This document shows positions 8,405 through 20,337 of a stretch of 40,971 bases of DNA, in pieces (within the stretch, counting starts at the first letter, position 1; every line of letters starts with the position of its first letter). A model generated the notes under the pieces. That model made no database searches. It worked only from the letters and a program-made list of their open reading frames with translations, and was not told where the DNA came from. This stretch comes from Rhodospirillaceae bacterium (GTDB lineage: Bacteria; Pseudomonadota; Alphaproteobacteria; Azospirillales; Azospirillaceae). The stretch spans positions 1 through 40,971 of the forward strand of contig JAJUIU010000032.1 of assembly GCA_029267445.1 (NCBI GenBank), read 5' to 3'. A program made the translations under genes and the position numbers.

Positions 8405-9352
8405 TTGGCGGACATCACCCTGCATGGCGACGATGGCTGCGCCTTCCTGCTGGATCGGCGGCGCGACGTGATCCATGCGCTGGAGCCGGACGCGGCGCGT
8501 CACTGGCGGGGCCGCCTTGGGCTCGGCTCCGGGGTGACCGTCGATCTGCGGCTTCTCGATTCGCGTTTGCGCCTCCTGTTGCCGGCCGAGGCGGCCCCAC
8601 CCGTCCGGGCCGCCTTCGCCGGCGCGTTGGACATGGCCGCCGGCGCGCCGGACGCCACGGTGGCCGTGGAACGCCGGGCGCGCGGCTGGCGCGTCGATGT
8701 GCCGGGCGGGCCGGAGGCCTGCGGCCGCACCGGCCTCGTCCCCCTGCTGAAGGCGCGGCTGGTCCATTTCGCGCTGGAGCGCGACGCCCGCCACGGGTGC
8801 CTGCACGCGGCGGCGGTGTTGCGGCGGGGACGGGCCCTTCTTCTGGCTGGTGATTCCGGTGCGGGTAAAAGCACGCTGACGGCCGCCCTGGCCCTTGCGG
8901 GCTGGCCGCTGGCGGGCGACGACATGGTGGCGCTGGGGCCGCACGGCAGCATCCGGCCGATTCCCACGGCGTTGTGCCTGAAGCCGGGATCCGTGCCGCC
9001 GCTGCTGCCACTCGCGCCGGATCTTGCGAGGGTTCCCGCGCATCGTCGTGCGGACGGCCGACTGGTCCGGTTCCTGCCCGTCGCGCGGACGGCACCGGCG
9101 GGCGGCGACCCGGTGCCCATGTGCGGCATCCTGTTCCCCCGCTTCATCCCGGGGGCCGCACCGGTCCTGGAACCCCTGGCGCGGCGGGACGCGGCGGCCC
9201 GGCTGCTGTCCCTGTTCTTCTGCCGCGATGGCACCATAGCGCCGGGCGATCTGGACCGGGTGATCGCCCTTGCGGGCGCCGCCCCGGCCTTCGGCTTTCA
9301 ACATGGCGGGATCGCGGACGCCTTGCCGCTGCTGGAGGCGGCGTTCCCGTGA
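8405..9352 (+). CDS. HprK-related serine kinase-like protein
   Basis: A 315-residue protein with the phosphoenolpyruvate-carboxykinase/HPr-kinase P-loop fold. It shows HAAAV (His134), Walker A GDSGAGKST (149-157), and the downstream GDDMVAL strand (171-177) that holds the metal-binding acidic pair in HprK. The N-terminal 120 residues are unlike classical HprK. No HPr or PTS gene is present, so it belongs to the HprK-related group that travels with nucleotidyltransferases and small peptides in Proteobacteria. The start is a TTG at 8405 preceded by GGGAG; no better ATG is available. It overlaps the next gene (GTGA), so the two are coupled. The substrate is unknown; a small peptide or protein serine is a reasonable guess. 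Confidence 0.82.
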   Translation: MADITLHGDDGCAFLLDRRRDVIHALEPDAARHWRGRLGLGSGVTVDLRLLDSRLRLLLPAEAAPPVRAAFAGALDMAAGAPDATVAVERRARGWRVDVPGGPEACGRTGLVPLLKARLVHFALERDARHGCLHAAAVLRRGRALLLAGDSGAGKSTLTAALALAGWPLAGDDMVALGPHGSIRPIPTALCLKPGSVPPLLPLAPDLARVPAHRRADGRLVRFLPVARTAPAGGDPVPMCGILFPRFIPGAAPVLEPLARRDAAARLLSLFFCRDGTIAPGDLDRVIALAGAAPAFGFQHGGIADALPLLEAAFP

Positions 9353-10410
9353 CCACGGCCGACAGCCTGGCCGCGCTCGGCATGCTGCTTCGGGACGGAC
9401 GGGCGCCCGGCCTGACGACGGCGGACTGGCACGCCGTCCTGACGCTGGCCGACGCCGCACTGGTGACGCCGGCTCTCGCCGGCTGCGACCTGCCGCCCGG
9501 CGACATCCGCGTCTATGTCGACGGTGTGCGCGCCCTCACGACCGAGCGCGCCCGCGCCCTGCGGGCGCAACTCGCGGAGCTGGGCGCGGCCTTCGCCGCC
9601 GGGGGCGTGGACCTGATGCTGCTCAAGGGGGCGGCCGCCCTGCCTGACCTGCCGGAGGCGGCGCTGGGCGACCGGCTGTGCGGCGATCTCGACCTGGCCG
9701 TTCGGCCGGACGCTCTGCACGCCGCCCGCCGGGCGCTGTTGGATCTGGGCTACGCGCGCCTGGACGCGGGTGATCCCGACGGCCGGACCGACGGCACCTG
9801 GGCCCGCCCCGCCGACCGCGCCGGGGTGGACCTGCATCTGCGGGTGATGCCCGATGACACGCTGCTGCCAATGGCGGAGCTCTGGCGTACGGCCGAGCCC
9901 GTGCCGGCCGCCGGCGCGTCCACGGTCCGTCCGGACCCGACCCGGCGTCTGGCGCACCTGCTGCTGCATGAGATGGTGCACCACCAGGGCCTGCGGGAGG
10001 GCTGGATCAGTCCGCGCGCCCTGCTGGACCTGCGCGGGCTGATGCCGGCCGGGCCGGACTGGGCCTGGCTCCAGTCCCATTTCCGGGCACGGGGCGTCGG
10101 CCTCGCGTTGACGGTGCCGCTGCTGGCGGCGGACCGCCTGCTGGGCACGGGCTGGCCTCTGGACGCGAGGCCGGATCCGGCGACACGGCTGGTGGCGGCG
10201 CGCATCCTGCGGGGGGGCGACGCCGGGATCATGGGCCGAACCGTTGATATCGCGATCGCCGTCGGCGAGGCGCTGTCGGCCGGCCACCTGCGCCGCTTGT
10301 ACGGGCAAGGGGGCGGGGTGGCCATGCTGCGGCTGCGGCACATTGCGGGCCTTCCCGCCCGTCTCATGACCCGTCACCGCGCGACCCGGCATCCCGCCGT
10401 CCGCCGTTGA
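9349..10410 (+). CDS. Nucleotidyltransferase-fold protein (NTP_transf_5-like)
   Basis: A 353-residue protein with the minimal nucleotidyltransferase core: the helix-leading motif LLKGAA (91-96) followed by GDLDLAV (112-118) with the two metal-binding aspartates, then DLHLRV as the third acidic strand. A helical C-terminal half with HLLLHEMVHHQG follows. This family is regularly encoded next to HprK-related kinases, in lasso-peptide loci and in exopolysaccharide loci. The GTG start at 9349 overlaps the kinase stop codon. The gene converges on a small peptide gene with a shared hairpin between them. The transferred group and target are not known. Confidence 0.82.
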   Translation: MTTADSLAALGMLLRDGRAPGLTTADWHAVLTLADAALVTPALAGCDLPPGDIRVYVDGVRALTTERARALRAQLAELGAAFAAGGVDLMLLKGAAALPDLPEAALGDRLCGDLDLAVRPDALHAARRALLDLGYARLDAGDPDGRTDGTWARPADRAGVDLHLRVMPDDTLLPMAELWRTAEPVPAAGASTVRPDPTRRLAHLLLHEMVHHQGLREGWISPRALLDLRGLMPAGPDWAWLQSHFRARGVGLALTVPLLAADRLLGTGWPLDARPDPATRLVAARILRGGDAGIMGRTVDIAIAVGEALSAGHLRRLYGQGGGVAMLRLRHIAGLPARLMTRHRATRHPAVRR

Positions 10411-10428
10411 GCCGCACATCGACCCTTC

Positions 10429-10453
10429 AGGGCGCGGCGGCCGTCCGCGCCCT
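10429..10453. terminator. Bidirectional hairpin between convergent genes
   Basis: A perfect 9-bp stem (AGGGCGCGG / CCGCGCCCT) with a 7-base loop lies between the ends of the nucleotidyltransferase gene and the convergent small peptide gene. A TCGGTTTTC stretch follows on the plus strand after about a dozen bases. It probably ends transcription from the plus side and may serve both. Confidence 0.55.
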
Positions 10454-10473
10454 GTCGGATCGTCGGTTTTCTG

Positions 10474-10692
10474 TCACTTCTTCCTAGGCTTCCGCGGCTT
10501 CCGCGGTTTCTTGAGCGGCTTGCCCGTGTACGACCCCGCATGGGCGAAGGCCCGGTTGGTGGTCGACATCAGGATGGCCATCGCCGGCGGTGCGGTAAGG
10601 GCCAGTTTTCCCGCCTTGGTCAGGAACTCGCGACGCTCAGGCGACGGGCCCGCGCCGTCATCTGTCACAGTGTCGTTCTCGGACTGGTTCAT
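10474..10692 (-). CDS. Small twin-arginine-like peptide with Lys/Arg/Pro tail
   Basis: Encodes 72 residues. An acidic N-terminus (MNQSENDTVTDDG) leads into ERREFLTKAGKLALTAPPAM (19-38), a twin-arginine-type signal core, then MAILMSTTNRAFA ending in an AFA-H signal-peptidase-like site. The tail is very basic and repetitive (KKPRKPRKPRKK, 61-72). A GGAGAGGGAG ribosome site sits five to six bases before the ATG, so this start is preferred over in-frame codons upstream. It is convergent with the HprK-like/nucleotidyltransferase pair. Small peptides with such a K-A-G-K-x-A-x-T-A-P core recur near these enzymes in Proteobacteria (from memory, not searched), so it may be their substrate or partner. 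The mature part would be only about 22 residues. Confidence 0.72.
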   Translation of the reverse strand: MNQSENDTVTDDGAGPSPERREFLTKAGKLALTAPPAMAILMSTTNRAFAHAGSYTGKPLKKPRKPRKPRKK

Positions 10693-10869
10693 GATCGACT
10701 CCCTCTCCGGCACCCGGGCATTCCGTGTGCCGGGAAGGAAGTCTACGCGCGGGCGAACGCCAGTCCCGTTCGCGGAAGGCGGGCCGGTGCGCAATTGCTC
10801 GGTAAACCCCCGCTCCGTTGGGGTCGGCCCTTCCGGAGCCGACCCGACCGAAATCGCGGAGATGGACGG

Positions 10870-14846: not shown

Positions 14847-14861
14847 GGGTCACTCCGCCGC
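14835..14861. terminator. Hairpin spanning the stop codons of two convergent genes
   Basis: A perfect 10-bp stem (GCGGCGGAGT / ACTCCGCCGC) with loop AGGGGTC covers the phhA stop and the stop of the convergent exporter gene. With only three bases between the genes, the terminator-like structure is built from coding sequence of both. No clear T-run follows on either strand. Confidence 0.5.
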
Positions 14862-16952
14862 CACGGTCCCGGCGGCGGTCTCGGCGGCGATCAGCTTGCC
14901 GCCCATCAGGACCAGCACGCGGTCGGCCGCCGCGATCGTCTCCGGCCGGTGGGCGATGACGATGCGGGTGATGCCCAGCCGCGCGATGTGGGCGTTCACC
15001 TCGCGCTCCTTGGCGACATCCAGGTGGCTGGTGCCCTCGTCCATGAACAGCAGCCGCGGCTTGCGGTAGAGCGCCCGGGCCAGCAGGACGCGCTGCCGCT
15101 GCCCGCCGGACAGGGCCGCCCCCATGTCGCCGACCAGGGTGTTGTAGTTCATGGGCATGGCCATGACCTCCTGGTCGATGCCGGCCAGCGCCGCGCACTG
15201 GCGCATCCACATCAGGTCGGGTGCTGCGTCGAAGAATGTGATGTTTTCAGCCAGGCTGCCGGACAGAAGCTGGTCGTCCTGCATCACCACGCCGACCTGG
15301 GCGCGGAAGGCGGTGGGGCCGACATGGTCCAGCGGCACCCCGTCCACCAGCACCTCCCCCTCGCGCGGGCGGAACAGGCCCAGCATGATCTTGAGCAGCG
15401 TGGTCTTGCCACCGCCCGACGGGCCGGTGATGGCGACGAACTCGCCCGGCGCGATCTCGAGATCGACGCCCGCCAGCACGTCTGGCTCCGTCTCGGCGTA
15501 GCGGTAGGACACGCCGCGCAGCGCGATGCCGCCCTTCAGCTCGTGCTGGACCAGCGGCAGGGTGTCCAGCGTGCTCTCCAGGCCCTTCTCCCGCTCCGCC
15601 AGCGCGATGTCGGCGATGCGGTCCAGGTGCAGGTCCAGCATCCGGTACTCGATCGCCGTCTCCAGCAGCTTGGTCGCCTTGTCCAGGAACTGCTGCTTGT
15701 AGCTCATGAAGGCGAACAGCATACCCACGGTCATATGACCTTCCATGGCGAGGCGCGCGCCGACATAGACGACCAGGATGTTCTCCGCCCCGTACAGCAG
15801 GTCGTTCACCGTCTTGAAGCTGATCTGCAGGCGGCCCAGGCGCACCGTGCGCTGGACCGTGTCGGCAAAGCGGTTCTGCCACACCCCCTCGCGGTCGGTC
15901 TCGCGGCCGAAGGTCTTGATCGTCTGGATGGCGCGGGCGGTCTCGATGAAGCTGGACTGCTCCTTCGCCATCGCTTCGATCTGCTCCTCCTGGCGCTGGC
16001 GCAGCACGCGGTAGGCGGCGACGCGGATCGCGGCATAGAGGACAAGCGCCACCAGCACGATGGCCGCCAGCAGGGGGGAGTAGATGAAGATCATGACCAG
16101 GGTCAGGATCGCCATCAGACCGTCCACCACGGCGGCGACCAGCCCCTCCGCGATCAGGTCGCGGATCGGCCGGGTGGACCCGAAGCGGGAGACGAGGTCG
16201 CCGATGTGCCGCTTCTCGAACCAGTCCAGCGGCAGGCGCACCATATGGTGGAACAGGTTCGCCACCATCTGGAAGCCGATCAGGTTGCCCAGGATCAGCA
16301 GCACCTGGGCGCGCAGCCAGTCCGACGCGACCCGGATGGCGGTCAGCAGGCCGAACCCGACGGCAAGTGCGATCAGCAGCCCGCCGTCGCCCTTCATCAC
16401 CGCCTCGTCCACCGCCAGCTGCATGTAGAACGGACCGGCCAGCAGCACGATCTGTAGCACCACGGACAGGACCAGCGCCTGCAGCAGGGCGCGCTTCATC
16501 CCGTCCACCCGGCCGAACAGGGCCGTCAGGGGCAGCCGCGCGCGCTCCTTCTTCCTCTCGAACGTGCTGGTCGGCGTCAGCTCCAGGGCCACACCGGTGA
16601 AATGCTGGCCCAGCTCCGCCATGGTCATGCGGACCACACCCTTGGCGGGATCGTGGATCGTGACCTTGTCGCCGCGCACCTGCGCCAGCACGACGAAATG
16701 GTTCATGTCCCAGTGCAGTACGGCCGGCAGCTTCAGGTCCTTCAGATGCGCCGGCTCAAGCCGAAGGCCACGCCCCGTCAGCCCCACCCGCTGCGCCATC
16801 AGCAGGATGGACTTCATGGTGGTGCCCTTCAGCGACACCGGGAAGCGCCGGCGCAGCGTGCCCAGATCCACCTCGTGCCCATGGTGCGCCATCACCATGG
16901 CGAGGCAGGCGAGTCCGCATTCGGCGGCTTCGGATTGCATCAACCCTGCCAT
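14850..16952 (-). CDS. Peptidase-containing ABC exporter (C39 bacteriocin-processing transporter)
   Basis: Cleaves double-glycine leader peptides and exports the cores across the inner membrane. The 700-residue chain holds a C39 papain-like peptidase (about 1-135) with Gln6, catalytic Cys12 (AECGLACLAMV), His85 (MNHFVVL) and Asp101 (IHDPAKG), all intact. The six-helix membrane domain follows (about 155-440), then an ATPase with Walker A GPSGGGKTT (around 510), signature LSGGQRQRV and Walker B LLFMDEGTS. It is therefore fully equipped, unlike C39-like degenerate forms in RTX transporters. GGGGAG lies eight bases before the ATG. It is last in a minus-strand set with an HlyD-type partner and GG-leader precursors. 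Confidence 0.95.
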   Translation of the reverse strand: MAGLMQSEAAECGLACLAMVMAHHGHEVDLGTLRRRFPVSLKGTTMKSILLMAQRVGLTGRGLRLEPAHLKDLKLPAVLHWDMNHFVVLAQVRGDKVTIHDPAKGVVRMTMAELGQHFTGVALELTPTSTFERKKERARLPLTALFGRVDGMKRALLQALVLSVVLQIVLLAGPFYMQLAVDEAVMKGDGGLLIALAVGFGLLTAIRVASDWLRAQVLLILGNLIGFQMVANLFHHMVRLPLDWFEKRHIGDLVSRFGSTRPIRDLIAEGLVAAVVDGLMAILTLVMIFIYSPLLAAIVLVALVLYAAIRVAAYRVLRQRQEEQIEAMAKEQSSFIETARAIQTIKTFGRETDREGVWQNRFADTVQRTVRLGRLQISFKTVNDLLYGAENILVVYVGARLAMEGHMTVGMLFAFMSYKQQFLDKATKLLETAIEYRMLDLHLDRIADIALAEREKGLESTLDTLPLVQHELKGGIALRGVSYRYAETEPDVLAGVDLEIAPGEFVAITGPSGGGKTTLLKIMLGLFRPREGEVLVDGVPLDHVGPTAFRAQVGVVMQDDQLLSGSLAENITFFDAAPDLMWMRQCAALAGIDQEVMAMPMNYNTLVGDMGAALSGGQRQRVLLARALYRKPRLLFMDEGTSHLDVAKEREVNAHIARLGITRIVIAHRPETIAAADRVLVLMGGKLIAAETAAGTVAAE

Positions 16953-17001: not shown

Positions 17002-17751
17002 TCAAGCGATATGGCAAGATTTGTGATGTAGTATGATTACATACTCAAACGTATTTATTAGCCCATGCAGTAGGGTGGGAGTAAGTATGGAACCAGTTAG
17101 CCAACGCAAAATACCAAAGATCAGCCCGGTTGCAGCCAACGCCAGAAAATTCTCATTATTGATATGAAGTGCGGCAAATATAACAGTTGTTGTAATAATT
17201 GCAAAAAAAGGTCCAATCTCTTTGTTGATATATTCAAACATAATCCCCCTGAAAAGAATTTCCTCAAGCGTCGGGCCTATGACGCACAAAGAGAAAAAAC
17301 CAAGAATCACAAGTATCATAAAGAACTGTCGACCGTCTGCAGAAACTCCACAAGCTTCTTCGTAAAGAGAAGCTTCAGACACAAATGAATGCAGTAGCGC
17401 TACTTGGAAGAATAGCGTGGTCGCTGCAAGAGCAAAAATTGGATAACGCGAGTACCATCTTGTTGGCACGGAAAACATTTGTCTCAAGCTATCGACTGAT
17501 TTAGATTTATACAGAATGATGTAAATAGTCAATAGGAGGCATGAGAAATCCATTATTATTTTTGAAAGTATCTTGCTTGCAGATGGCCCATGATCAGGTT
17601 GGTTCTCGACGGATTGCATTGCATGACCAATCAAGGTCTGTCCAAAAAGATAGACTCCTAAAATCACGAGAACAAGGAAAAACCTCCTATCGTCAGTGTG
17701 GTCGTTTTCATGTCTAATGTGGTATTTGGTAGGCAAACTATTTTGCTCCAT
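17002..17751 (-). CDS. CPBP (Abi/CAAX-like) intramembrane protease family protein, candidate bacteriocin immunity protein
   Basis: A 249-residue multi-helix membrane protein with the CPBP motifs: Glu163-Glu164 and Arg168 (TLEEILFRG), His196 (FAALHI), His229 and Asn233 (LLHGLIN). Members of this family are often encoded with bacteriocin genes and some act as immunity proteins; others are proteases that process prenylated or secreted proteins. The start at 17751 is chosen because AGGAAA precedes it by about nine bases; a TTG 22 codons upstream is possible. The gene is clearly richer in A+T than its neighbours. It lies between the GG-leader peptide genes and the exporter gene, 49 bases ahead of the latter. 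Immunity is inferred from context. Confidence 0.85.
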   Translation of the reverse strand: MEQNSLPTKYHIRHENDHTDDRRFFLVLVILGVYLFGQTLIGHAMQSVENQPDHGPSASKILSKIIMDFSCLLLTIYIILYKSKSVDSLRQMFSVPTRWYSRYPIFALAATTLFFQVALLHSFVSEASLYEEACGVSADGRQFFMILVILGFFSLCVIGPTLEEILFRGIMFEYINKEIGPFFAIITTTVIFAALHINNENFLALAATGLIFGILRWLTGSILTPTLLHGLINTFEYVIILHHKSCHIA

Positions 17752-17890
17752 TGTTGAATTTCCTGTTTGGTTATTGGTTGCATATTCATCACGAAAAATT
17801 TCATCGGTCGCCGACAACGTGGAAACCGACGGTGCGGACGTGCCCGAAAATCCAGTGAGTCAAGTGTGATATGCTTGAGAAAGAGTAATG

Positions 17891-17932: not shown

Positions 17933-18172
17933 TCAGGGCACGCCGAGATCTCCCATGCTTATGTTTGGCGCAGGGGAACTGCCATCAATGCCCAGAACGC
18001 TCCGCATCCCCCAGTCAACCAATTGGGCTATGCCAATTATTTCTGCCACCTCTCGGATAAAGGTTCCCATGCCTCCACCCGCGACCATTTCCAGATCATC
18101 AAGTTCCAGAACTGAGACATCGGTGAAAGGCAACCGAAGGTCGCCATCAATAGCAACAACGTACGAGTTCAT
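17933..18172 (-). CDS. Double-glycine-leader peptide precursor 1 (putative bacteriocin)
   Basis: A 79-residue precursor. Residues 1-33 form a leader ending LELDDLEMVAGG, a textbook C39-processed double-glycine leader (hydrophobic/acidic L-x-x-D-x-L-E-x-V-x-G-G). The predicted 46-residue core begins GMGTFIREVAEIIG, is amphipathic and Gly/Ile-rich, has no cysteine, and ends NISMGDLGVP. A GGAG ribosome site lies about nine bases before the ATG. It is encoded with a second precursor sharing the core start and tail, a CPBP protein and a C39 exporter. Bacteriocin activity is inferred; a signalling role is also possible. The clear leader and matching peptidase make the secretion route the safest part of the call. 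Confidence 0.85.
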   Translation of the reverse strand: MNSYVVAIDGDLRLPFTDVSVLELDDLEMVAGGGMGTFIREVAEIIGIAQLVDWGMRSVLGIDGSSPAPNISMGDLGVP

Positions 18173-18328
18173 CGCTGATCTCCATTCGCGCTGAGGTTGT
18201 TGAACGCTTCCGCTGATACTCTCGGTTGGCTTGAAGTGGTCAGAGGTTGCATCGAGAATTCATTGGAAGCACATATACTCACAAGGAGCATGCCCATGAT
18301 GGATAGGCGCGGTCTACGTCCTGTAATC

Positions 18329-18535
18329 TTAGGCGACTCCAAGATCGCCCATGTTTACGTCCGGGGTCCCGACGGGGCGATCACACGAGATCTCCGACAT
18401 GATCTGGCCAATGATAATGATGACGATCTCGCGAGCGAATCCGCCAGAAATCATCTCAAGGTCGTCCGACGAAAGCTGCGCTTTGCTTCCCATAGGCCCA
18501 GGAAGTTCCTTGAACAATTCTAAGTTCACTGTCAT
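18329..18535 (-). CDS. Double-glycine-leader peptide precursor 2 (putative bacteriocin)
   Basis: A 68-residue precursor. The leader (1-32) ends LSSDDLEMISGG. The predicted 36-residue core starts FAREIVIIIIGQIMSEISC, a very hydrophobic segment with the only cysteine, and ends DVNMGDLGVA. A GAGGA ribosome site lies about nine bases before the ATG. Compared with precursor 1, the core shares F-x-R-E-(V/I) near its start and MGDLGV plus one residue at its end, while the middle differs in length and sequence. The genes look like diverged duplicates that may act as a two-component pair. Function beyond export is inferred. Confidence 0.83.
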   Translation of the reverse strand: MTVNLELFKELPGPMGSKAQLSSDDLEMISGGFAREIVIIIIGQIMSEISCDRPVGTPDVNMGDLGVA

Positions 18536-18599
18536 TCTGCGTCGTCCTCACTGTCTGTGGAGCCAATCGGTGTTCCACCACGGCTAGGCTCCTCGGGGG

Positions 18600-18624
18600 C
18601 CCCGCCGGCCACGTGCCGGCGGGG
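18600..18624 (-). terminator. GC-rich hairpin upstream of precursor 2
   Basis: A perfect 10-bp stem (CCCCGCCGGC / GCCGGCGGGG) with loop CACGT lies about 65 bases upstream of the precursor 2 start and about 130 bases after the small peptide gene at 18756-18905. There is no T-run on the minus strand, so it may be a partial terminator, an RNA-processing site or a stability element in the 5' leader of the two precursor genes. Confidence 0.45.
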
Positions 18625-18629
18625 GTTCC

Positions 18630-18648
18630 CGCCCGGGAATACCGGGCG
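18630..18648 (-). terminator. Second hairpin in the leader of the precursor genes
   Basis: CGCCCGG and CCGGGCG form a perfect 7-bp stem around loop GAATA, six bases from the larger hairpin. Flanking GTTCC and GGAAC could extend pairing across an AAA bulge. The two hairpins together separate the hlyD side of the operon from the peptide cassette. Confidence 0.4.
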
Positions 18649-18703
18649 AAAGGAACAAACGAATATCCTTCTTGATTGAATCTATCCTTCGCGTCCGTCG
18701 TGG

Positions 18704-18755: not shown

Positions 18756-18905
18756 TTACGACGGGCGCGTCTGCTCGCGCCGGAGCCACTCCGACCAGAA
18801 GTCGTCTTGGAACAGCAGGGTTGGGCAGGGCGTCCACAAGGCACCGGAGGCCCGCTCCAGATCAGTCTGTTCGACTTCGCGGTCGTTGAGCAAATCGTCC
18901 GACAT
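18756..18905 (-). CDS. Small peptide gene with degenerate GG-type leader, between hlyD and the precursor genes
   Basis: A 49-residue product, MSDDLLNDREVEQTDLERAS then GALWTPCPTLLFQDDFWSEW, ending in LRREQTRPS. Residues 1-22 resemble an acidic export leader ending DLERASGA, where the usual GG is GA. A core of about 27 residues would contain three Trp, one Cys and a mixed-charge tail. A strong AAGGGAAGG ribosome site precedes the ATG. It is in the minus-strand operon directly after hlyD. It could be a third exported peptide, a chaperone-like helper or a regulator. A different frame through the same DNA is longer but has random-looking Arg/Pro-rich composition. Confidence 0.6.
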   Translation of the reverse strand: MSDDLLNDREVEQTDLERASGALWTPCPTLLFQDDFWSEWLRREQTRPS

Positions 18906-19098: not shown

Positions 19099-20337
19099 TC
19101 ACATCCGCCCCCTGGCGCTCAGCAGCGGCTCCAGCAGCCATTCCAGCAGCGTGCGCTCCTCAAGCACGATGTCGGCGCGCAGCGTCATGTCCGGCTGCAG
19201 GCCGACATCACGGCCGAAGGCGTTCACGGTCGGCCGGTCCAGCGCCACGGTGACGCGGTAGGCCGGTTCCGGCAGACGGATCGGCCCCAGCGCCTCCTCC
19301 GGGGTCAGCATGGTTTCCGACACCGTCTCCACCGTGCCGCCATGGGCTCCGAAGCGCTGGAAGGGGAAGGCGTCGTACATCAGGCGCACGCGCTGCCCCG
19401 GCTCGACGAAGCCGATGGCCCGGCTGGGCACGAACAGTTCCGCCCGCAGGGCCGCATCCTCCGGCACGATGGACAGGACGGGCTTGGTCGGGTCGATCCG
19501 CTGGCCCGGCTGCGCCTGGATGCCGGTGACGCGGCCTGGGGAGGGGGCCCGTACGGTGACCGCACCCTGGGCCGACACCTCCACCTTGCGCTGAGCCAGC
19601 TCAGCCTCCGTCGCGCGCAGGCGGGCCAGGCGGTCGGCACTCTCCGCCGGCGCCTGGGCGCGCTGGATCTCCGTCTGCCGGCGTTCCTGCGTCAGGGCGG
19701 CGGTCCGCTGGTCGATGGCGGCCAGGGACTGGCGCTGGCCAAGCCACGCCTCCTCCCGCGCCCGGTACTCCGCCTCGGAGACGAACCCTTTGGCGCGCAG
19801 GTCGGACAGCGCCTTCAGCCGCTCCTCCGACACGGTGACCCGCTCGGCCTGGAGGCTACGCTGGACGGACAGCGACTCCAGCTCGGCCGTCAGGCCCCTC
19901 AGGCGGGAGTCCAGCCGGTCGGCCTCGCTGACCGCGCGGGCCTCCTCCGCCGCGATCTGCTCCCGCAGAAGCTGGGCTTGGCGGAGCAGCCCGTCGCGCA
20001 GCACGGCGTCCAGGGTGCCGCCGCCCTCCAGCCCCTGGCGCGTGTCCAGGGTGAACAGCGCTTCCCCCGCCGTGACCGCGTCGCCGGGGCCGACGGCCAG
20101 CGCCGCCAGGGTGCCAGCACGGGGCGGAACGACCCGCACGGTTCCGGTGGCCGGCGCCAGGAATCCGACGGCCGTCTCCTTCCGCGCGTAACCGGCGGTG
20201 GCCGCAAAGCCCAACGCAACCGCCAGTGAACCGGCCAGGAAGGCCGTCACCACCGGCCAGCCCATTCCCGTCAGCCCCATCGGCAGGGTGACCTGCTGGC
20301 CGGCGAGCGCTGGTATCTGGCGGAAGGCGATGGGCAT
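19099..20337 (-). CDS. HlyD/CvaA-family periplasmic adaptor (membrane fusion protein)
   Basis: Links an inner-membrane ABC exporter to a TolC-like outer-membrane channel. The 412-residue protein has a short cytoplasmic N-terminus, one membrane helix (about 27-50), a lipoyl-like half-motif (FLAPATGTVRVVPPRAGTLAAL), a long coiled-coil hairpin (about 110-245, rich in Leu/Glu/Arg/Gln), the second lipoyl half (TVRAPSPGRVTGIQAQPGQRI) and a beta-barrel C-terminal domain with GQRVRLMYDAFPFQRFG, typical of CvaA-like bacteriocin exporters. AAAGGA lies five to six bases before the ATG. It is the first gene of the operon, separated from its exporter partner by the peptide and CPBP genes. No TolC gene is in the window. 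Confidence 0.93.
   Translation of the reverse strand: MPIAFRQIPALAGQQVTLPMGLTGMGWPVVTAFLAGSLAVALGFAATAGYARKETAVGFLAPATGTVRVVPPRAGTLAALAVGPGDAVTAGEALFTLDTRQGLEGGGTLDAVLRDGLLRQAQLLREQIAAEEARAVSEADRLDSRLRGLTAELESLSVQRSLQAERVTVSEERLKALSDLRAKGFVSEAEYRAREEAWLGQRQSLAAIDQRTAALTQERRQTEIQRAQAPAESADRLARLRATEAELAQRKVEVSAQGAVTVRAPSPGRVTGIQAQPGQRIDPTKPVLSIVPEDAALRAELFVPSRAIGFVEPGQRVRLMYDAFPFQRFGAHGGTVETVSETMLTPEEALGPIRLPEPAYRVTVALDRPTVNAFGRDVGLQPDMTLRADIVLEERTLLEWLLEPLLSARGRM

Follow-up and report, generated by a model that had tools for sequence, protein, structure and literature searches.

The described systems closest to the locus analysed here are the class II microcins, the CdzC/CdzD peptides of Caulobacter, and the Gram-positive class II bacteriocin loci that carry CPBP/Abi genes. 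Class II microcins carry an N-terminal leader that ends in GG (or GA). The ten known ones have cores of about 60-90 residues, and all confirmed microcins in the review that describes them come from Enterobacteriaceae (PMC10233263). Two of them, MccV and MccL, are alike only in their last 32 residues and both use Cir; it is reportedly the C-terminus that determines the uptake of class II microcins (PMC10233263). In the alphaproteobacterium Caulobacter both CdzC and CdzD are needed (PMC5380434). CPBP proteins have been proposed as self-immunity factors for bacteriocins (PMC8692603).

In this work we analysed a locus encoding two small GG-leader peptides, P1 and P2, in a Rhodospirillaceae bacterium; the window is the whole stretch of DNA analysed, 40,971 nucleotides long. 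A sequence-only reading of this window had placed two such ORFs at 17933-18535, and both were found there on the minus strand (18172-17933 and 18535-18329). From the adaptor gene to the exporter gene all features of the locus lie on the minus strand, in the order HlyD adaptor, P3, P2, P1, hairpin, CPBP protein and C39-ABC exporter. The features, preceded by a two-component gene pair upstream, are:

23830-20564: sensor kinase and response regulator, upstream of the HlyD-P3-P2-P1 locus
19099..20337, minus strand: HlyD-type membrane fusion adaptor (PF13437, 8.1e-20; TIGR01843, 1.6e-45, below cutoff)
18756..18905, minus strand: P3, short ORF of 49 amino acids with a strong Shine-Dalgarno sequence (GGGAAGG)
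18329..18535, minus strand: P2, GG-leader peptide ORF of 68 amino acids
18329..18352, minus strand: P2 tail, MGDLGVA-stop, pattern match in its own genome
17933..18172, minus strand: P1, GG-leader peptide ORF of 79 amino acids with a GGAG ribosome-binding site, paralogue of P2
17933..17956, minus strand: P1 tail, MGDLGVP-stop, pattern match in its own genome
17890..17922, minus strand: hairpin of 15 pairs with a weak T run, directly after the P1 stop (z = -5.8, from a scan for terminators and folding)
17002..17751, minus strand: CPBP/Rce1-like intramembrane protein (PF02517, E 1.7e-19), with EExxR, FxxxH and H motifs
14850..16952, minus strand: C39 peptidase-containing ABC exporter (PF03412, 5.1e-35; PF00664; PF00005)

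P1 and P2 have in common the leader motif DDLEM[V/I]xGG, which ends in VAGG in P1 and in ISGG in P2; in the whole 4.23 Mb genome this leader pattern is found in these two peptides only, and the tail pattern only at their two ends. After the GG, the core is 46 residues long in P1 and 36 in P2; both cores carry F[I/A]RE[V/I] in their opening and finish with MGDLGV, one residue (P in P1, A in P2) and the stop, an ending that the earlier reading had described correctly. That reading also made FIREV and FAREI the first residues of the two cores, which is exact for P2, whereas the P1 core opens with GMG-T and FIREV comes at position 5. Of the differences that it had seen between the two middles, length and cysteine content (0 versus 1 in the cores) stand, while the supposed difference in hydrophobicity does not (GRAVY 0.50 versus 0.67); the pI is 4.11 for both cores, which are thus net acidic. 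No family model reaches its cutoff with either peptide: P2 scores 16.2 bits against TIGR03949 (lactobin A/cerein 7B family; cutoff 21.5), mostly over the leader region, and P1 does not match this model. The predicted structure of P1 has a mean pLDDT of 40 and was left unused.

The likeness between P1 and P2 exceeds chance. When the window's stop-to-stop frames were compared two by two (149,331 pairs), two pairs shared an identical run of at least six residues at the same offset within their last eight residues, one of them presumably P1/P2. The two cores align with a score of 39 (shuffles: mean -18, sd 9, maximum 18), and they still score 9 when the tail is removed (shuffle mean -20.5, sd 8.0), in an alignment that pairs FIREVAEIIGIAQ with FAREIVIIIIGQ. 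Because the cores score above shuffles even without the tail, P1 and P2 are, as judged from these alignments, paralogues along their whole length that have diverged most in the middle; the proposal that they share both ends and not the middle makes too little of this relation. Codons differ at 14 of the 17 shared non-Met residues of the leader, core start and tail. Within P-(x3)-M-GDLGV, five of the six comparable codons (P, G, L, G, V) differ; the D codon is alike, and M has one codon. These different synonymous codons at identical residues indicate that the duplication is old and that the shared ends have probably been kept by selection at the protein level, an argument drawn from two sequences. 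Since the ends were preserved while synonymous sites diverged, the tail probably matters. One could argue that it is a mere relic of the duplication without a role of its own, as the whole peptides are homologous and the tail has no other carrier, but we consider this quite unlikely, given that six residues are identical over codons that nearly all differ and that positions beside the tail have changed.

A fixed C-terminal tag carried by variable cores across genomes had been proposed, with a database search for leader plus tail as the way to find it. The strict form of the tail pattern, [I/V/L/M/F...]-[N/S]-MGDLGV-x-stop, requires N or S before M, and other residues at this position were covered, as MGDLGV-x-stop, in the order and class sets only. 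In 84,980 species genomes the strict pattern gave a single match, which lies antisense inside an SMC gene and reads MGDFGVG, and in 2.9 million viral contigs it gave none. MGDLGV-x-stop was found in none of the 82 genomes of the order besides the source genome, and at four places outside the source genome in 385 genomes of the class, all of them short frames and none with a GG leader. As far as searched, the tail is therefore confined to the P1/P2 pair, no other genome showing it beyond chance matches, and the fixed-tag claim fails. Searches with single sequences and with profiles yielded no credible homologue of P1 or P2 in relatives, in the class (385 genomes), in the phylum (398), or in plasmids, phages and viral contigs, which leaves two sequences as the basis for calling the tail conserved. 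P1 and P2 are a local paralogue pair at a familiar kind of export locus, a new peptide family in a known kind of system; the pair is functionally suggestive and is not a widespread tag.

Orthologues of the exporter were found in the same family, 79% identical in one genome, 74-75% in three, 61% in one and 57-58% in two, and the GG-leader genes beside all seven differ from P1 and P2. These cargos are glycine-rich hydrophobic peptides at loci L062-L064, a serine/glycine-rich pair with cysteines at L065, and cysteine-containing peptides at L066 and L067; several resemble the Bacteriocin_IIc, MccV or cerein 7B models, all below cutoff (for example PF17508, 9.7e-6, at L071). None of them ends in the MGDLGV tail. 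Because cargos at orthologous exporters lack the tail, the exporter does not require it, and the suggestion that the exporter recognises the tail is unlikely. At L065 (6466-6844) two overlapping GG-leader genes agree in the C-terminal half of their products (VSCPNG...VVCN) but not in the part that precedes it; their cores align with a score of 91 (shuffle mean -3) and are unrelated in sequence to P1 and P2. Judging from this independent pair, local duplications that preserve the ends may have happened more than once at loci of this exporter. Adjoining a related exporter, L075 (11061-11675) encodes a protein of 204 amino acids with a GG-type leader and a DUF4329/JAB-like region, and this exporter group may thus also carry enzyme-sized cargo.

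Base composition sets the cargo genes apart from their surroundings. The P2-P1-CPBP block (about 16.9 to 18.5 kb) has a GC content of 0.40-0.53, against about 0.65-0.75 in its flanks and 70% in the window, and GC3 is 0.38 for the CPBP gene, 0.54 for P1 and 0.66 for P2, compared with 0.91 for HlyD, 0.94 for the ABC exporter and 0.84 for P3. By its composition this block looks like foreign, swapped cargo, and cassette DNA showed no similarity to plasmids. Loci L062-L065 keep the HlyD-cargo-ABC order seen here, around a block that is poorer in GC (0.24-0.44 at L064 and 0.23-0.49 at L065, among the closest loci) and that contains small membrane proteins; the L062 block includes a transposase-like ORF, read from the sequence. 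The exporter locus L073 has another CPBP gene of low GC content, placed between its ABC and HlyD genes, and CPBP relatives in 22 other genomes of the class have no GG-leader peptide alongside. Transferred low-GC DNA seems to replace the cargo block of this exporter from time to time, and such swapped blocks at a conserved exporter are a more general result than the tail. P3 has a leader-like stretch of the GA type (TDLERASGA|LWTPCP...) followed by a remainder of 27 tryptophan-rich residues; weak matches within the order are unconvincing and gave no clear relative. It is a possible third cargo, perhaps, in view of its native-like GC3, an older one of this exporter. Between P3 and P2, where the GC content drops, lies a strong GC-rich inverted repeat (18575-18650) that could be a cassette boundary or a terminator.

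We propose that P1 and P2 are precursors of unmodified bacteriocin-like peptides with a microcin-like layout, whose low-GC cargo/immunity cassette would have been acquired and lodged between two native export genes. Cleavage after Gly-Gly is predicted for the exporter's C39 domain, a step well founded on the domains present, and the ABC-HlyD complex, together with the TolC-type channel of the genome (a TolC-family gene with a PF02321 pair lies on another contig), would release the 46- and 36-residue cores. The hairpin after P1 is a probable partial terminator between the peptides and the CPBP gene, which would favour peptide over downstream transcripts. The neighbouring CPBP protein, whose gene likely starts at ATG 17751 with AGGAAA upstream (the longest ORF starts at 17817), is most likely the immunity protein that protects the producer; this assignment, like the putative killing activity, draws on the layout and on published associations (PMC8692603), and the protein could also have no link to immunity. 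After the old duplication the hydrophobic middle would have diverged, while the leader, the core start and the MGDLGV tail were retained. Most likely both peptides need the tail for a contact, either with a common target-cell receptor for uptake or with a shared immunity protein: by analogy with MccV and MccL it may serve uptake, and the data are equally compatible with recognition by the immunity protein. We give this account as a whole a probability of about 0.62.

Other roles for the pair fit the same locus less well. Two adjacent GG-leader peptides with a single putative immunity gene recall CdzC/CdzD, and P1 and P2 might be obligate halves of one two-peptide bacteriocin, with the shared ends as mutual contact surface. 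This is unlikely, as both cores are acidic, no two glycines lie four apart in either (GxxxG, read from the sequence) and neither has a glycine zipper with many small hydrophobic residues, as defined for the Caulobacter peptides (PMC5380434), both features of known two-peptide systems, and as identical tails suggest a common partner rather than complementary halves. Secreted signalling peptides would also use GG-leader exporters, and a sensor kinase and response regulator are encoded upstream; we dropped this gene pair as part of the system because it does not adjoin the orthologous exporters, and strong cargo turnover next to a membrane protein gene fits toxin and immunity better, which makes signalling very unlikely. 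The sequence-only reading had also considered an enzyme acting on the tail, an idea that finds little support in an operon where the CPBP protein is the only candidate modifying enzyme. If the CPBP protein were a protease that recognises or cuts the tail for processing or sorting, rather than an immunity protein, the position of its gene in the same low-GC block, its intact EExxR, FxxxH and H motifs, and the fact that CPBP relatives process C-terminal signals would all be accounted for. Known CTERM signals have a membrane helix and a basic end. No such helix or basic cluster follows the MGDLGV motif in P1 or P2, where one residue alone comes after it, and the matches to the MrtJ and MrtS models are weak, far below the equivalog cutoffs, so that we regard this role as highly improbable.

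Elsewhere in the window we observed a gene like that of HprK-related kinase A (8405-9352, plus strand; TIGR04352, 1.7e-22, below cutoff), followed by an NTP_transf_5 gene (about 9343-10410, plus strand) and by a convergent short ORF (10689-10477, minus strand) with a REFLTKAGKLALTAPPAM segment and a basic KPRKPRKPRKK end. This gene group (8405-10794) resembles a peptide-maturation cassette.

Under the proposed bacteriocin-like account, P1 and P2 make it possible to ask, in a naturally occurring pair, whether Gram-negative GG-leader bacteriocins outside Enterobacteriaceae have in their C-terminus a separable module for uptake or immunity, and the orthologous loci offer a practical way to more such peptides, which is to follow the exporter and not the peptide. 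A tentative and somewhat doubtful extension would make the conserved exporter and adaptor of this alphaproteobacterial family a docking site for exchangeable foreign cassettes of cargo and immunity genes, with the six-residue tail of the present cassette as the minimal shared address, for receptor or immunity protein, on two killing cores.

Compared with class II microcins such as MccV and MccL, the P1/P2 locus has the same GG leader, C39-ABC exporter and HlyD-type adaptor, and a TolC-type channel, here encoded elsewhere in the genome; for the adjacent immunity gene of such microcins, the neighbouring CPBP gene is a candidate here. The likeness of MccV and MccL, confined to the C-terminus, parallels the P1/P2 tail, with about 32 residues there and six here. 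P1 and P2 differ from these microcins in their acidic cores, which at 46 and 36 residues fall short of the 60-90 range, in having no sequence relation to them, in the CPBP protein as immunity candidate and in the alphaproteobacterial host. Like P1 and P2, CdzC and CdzD are two small alphaproteobacterial peptides with GG-type leaders, encoded together with a type I exporter; an immunity gene accompanies them, as a candidate one does P1 and P2. By contrast, P1 and P2 lack the glycine zipper, have a different immunity candidate and are not known to act in a contact-dependent manner. Finally, Gram-positive class II loci of the blp and pln types bring GG-leader peptides and a CPBP gene together as here, whereas P1 and P2 have dissimilar core sequences and a Gram-negative export layout with HlyD.
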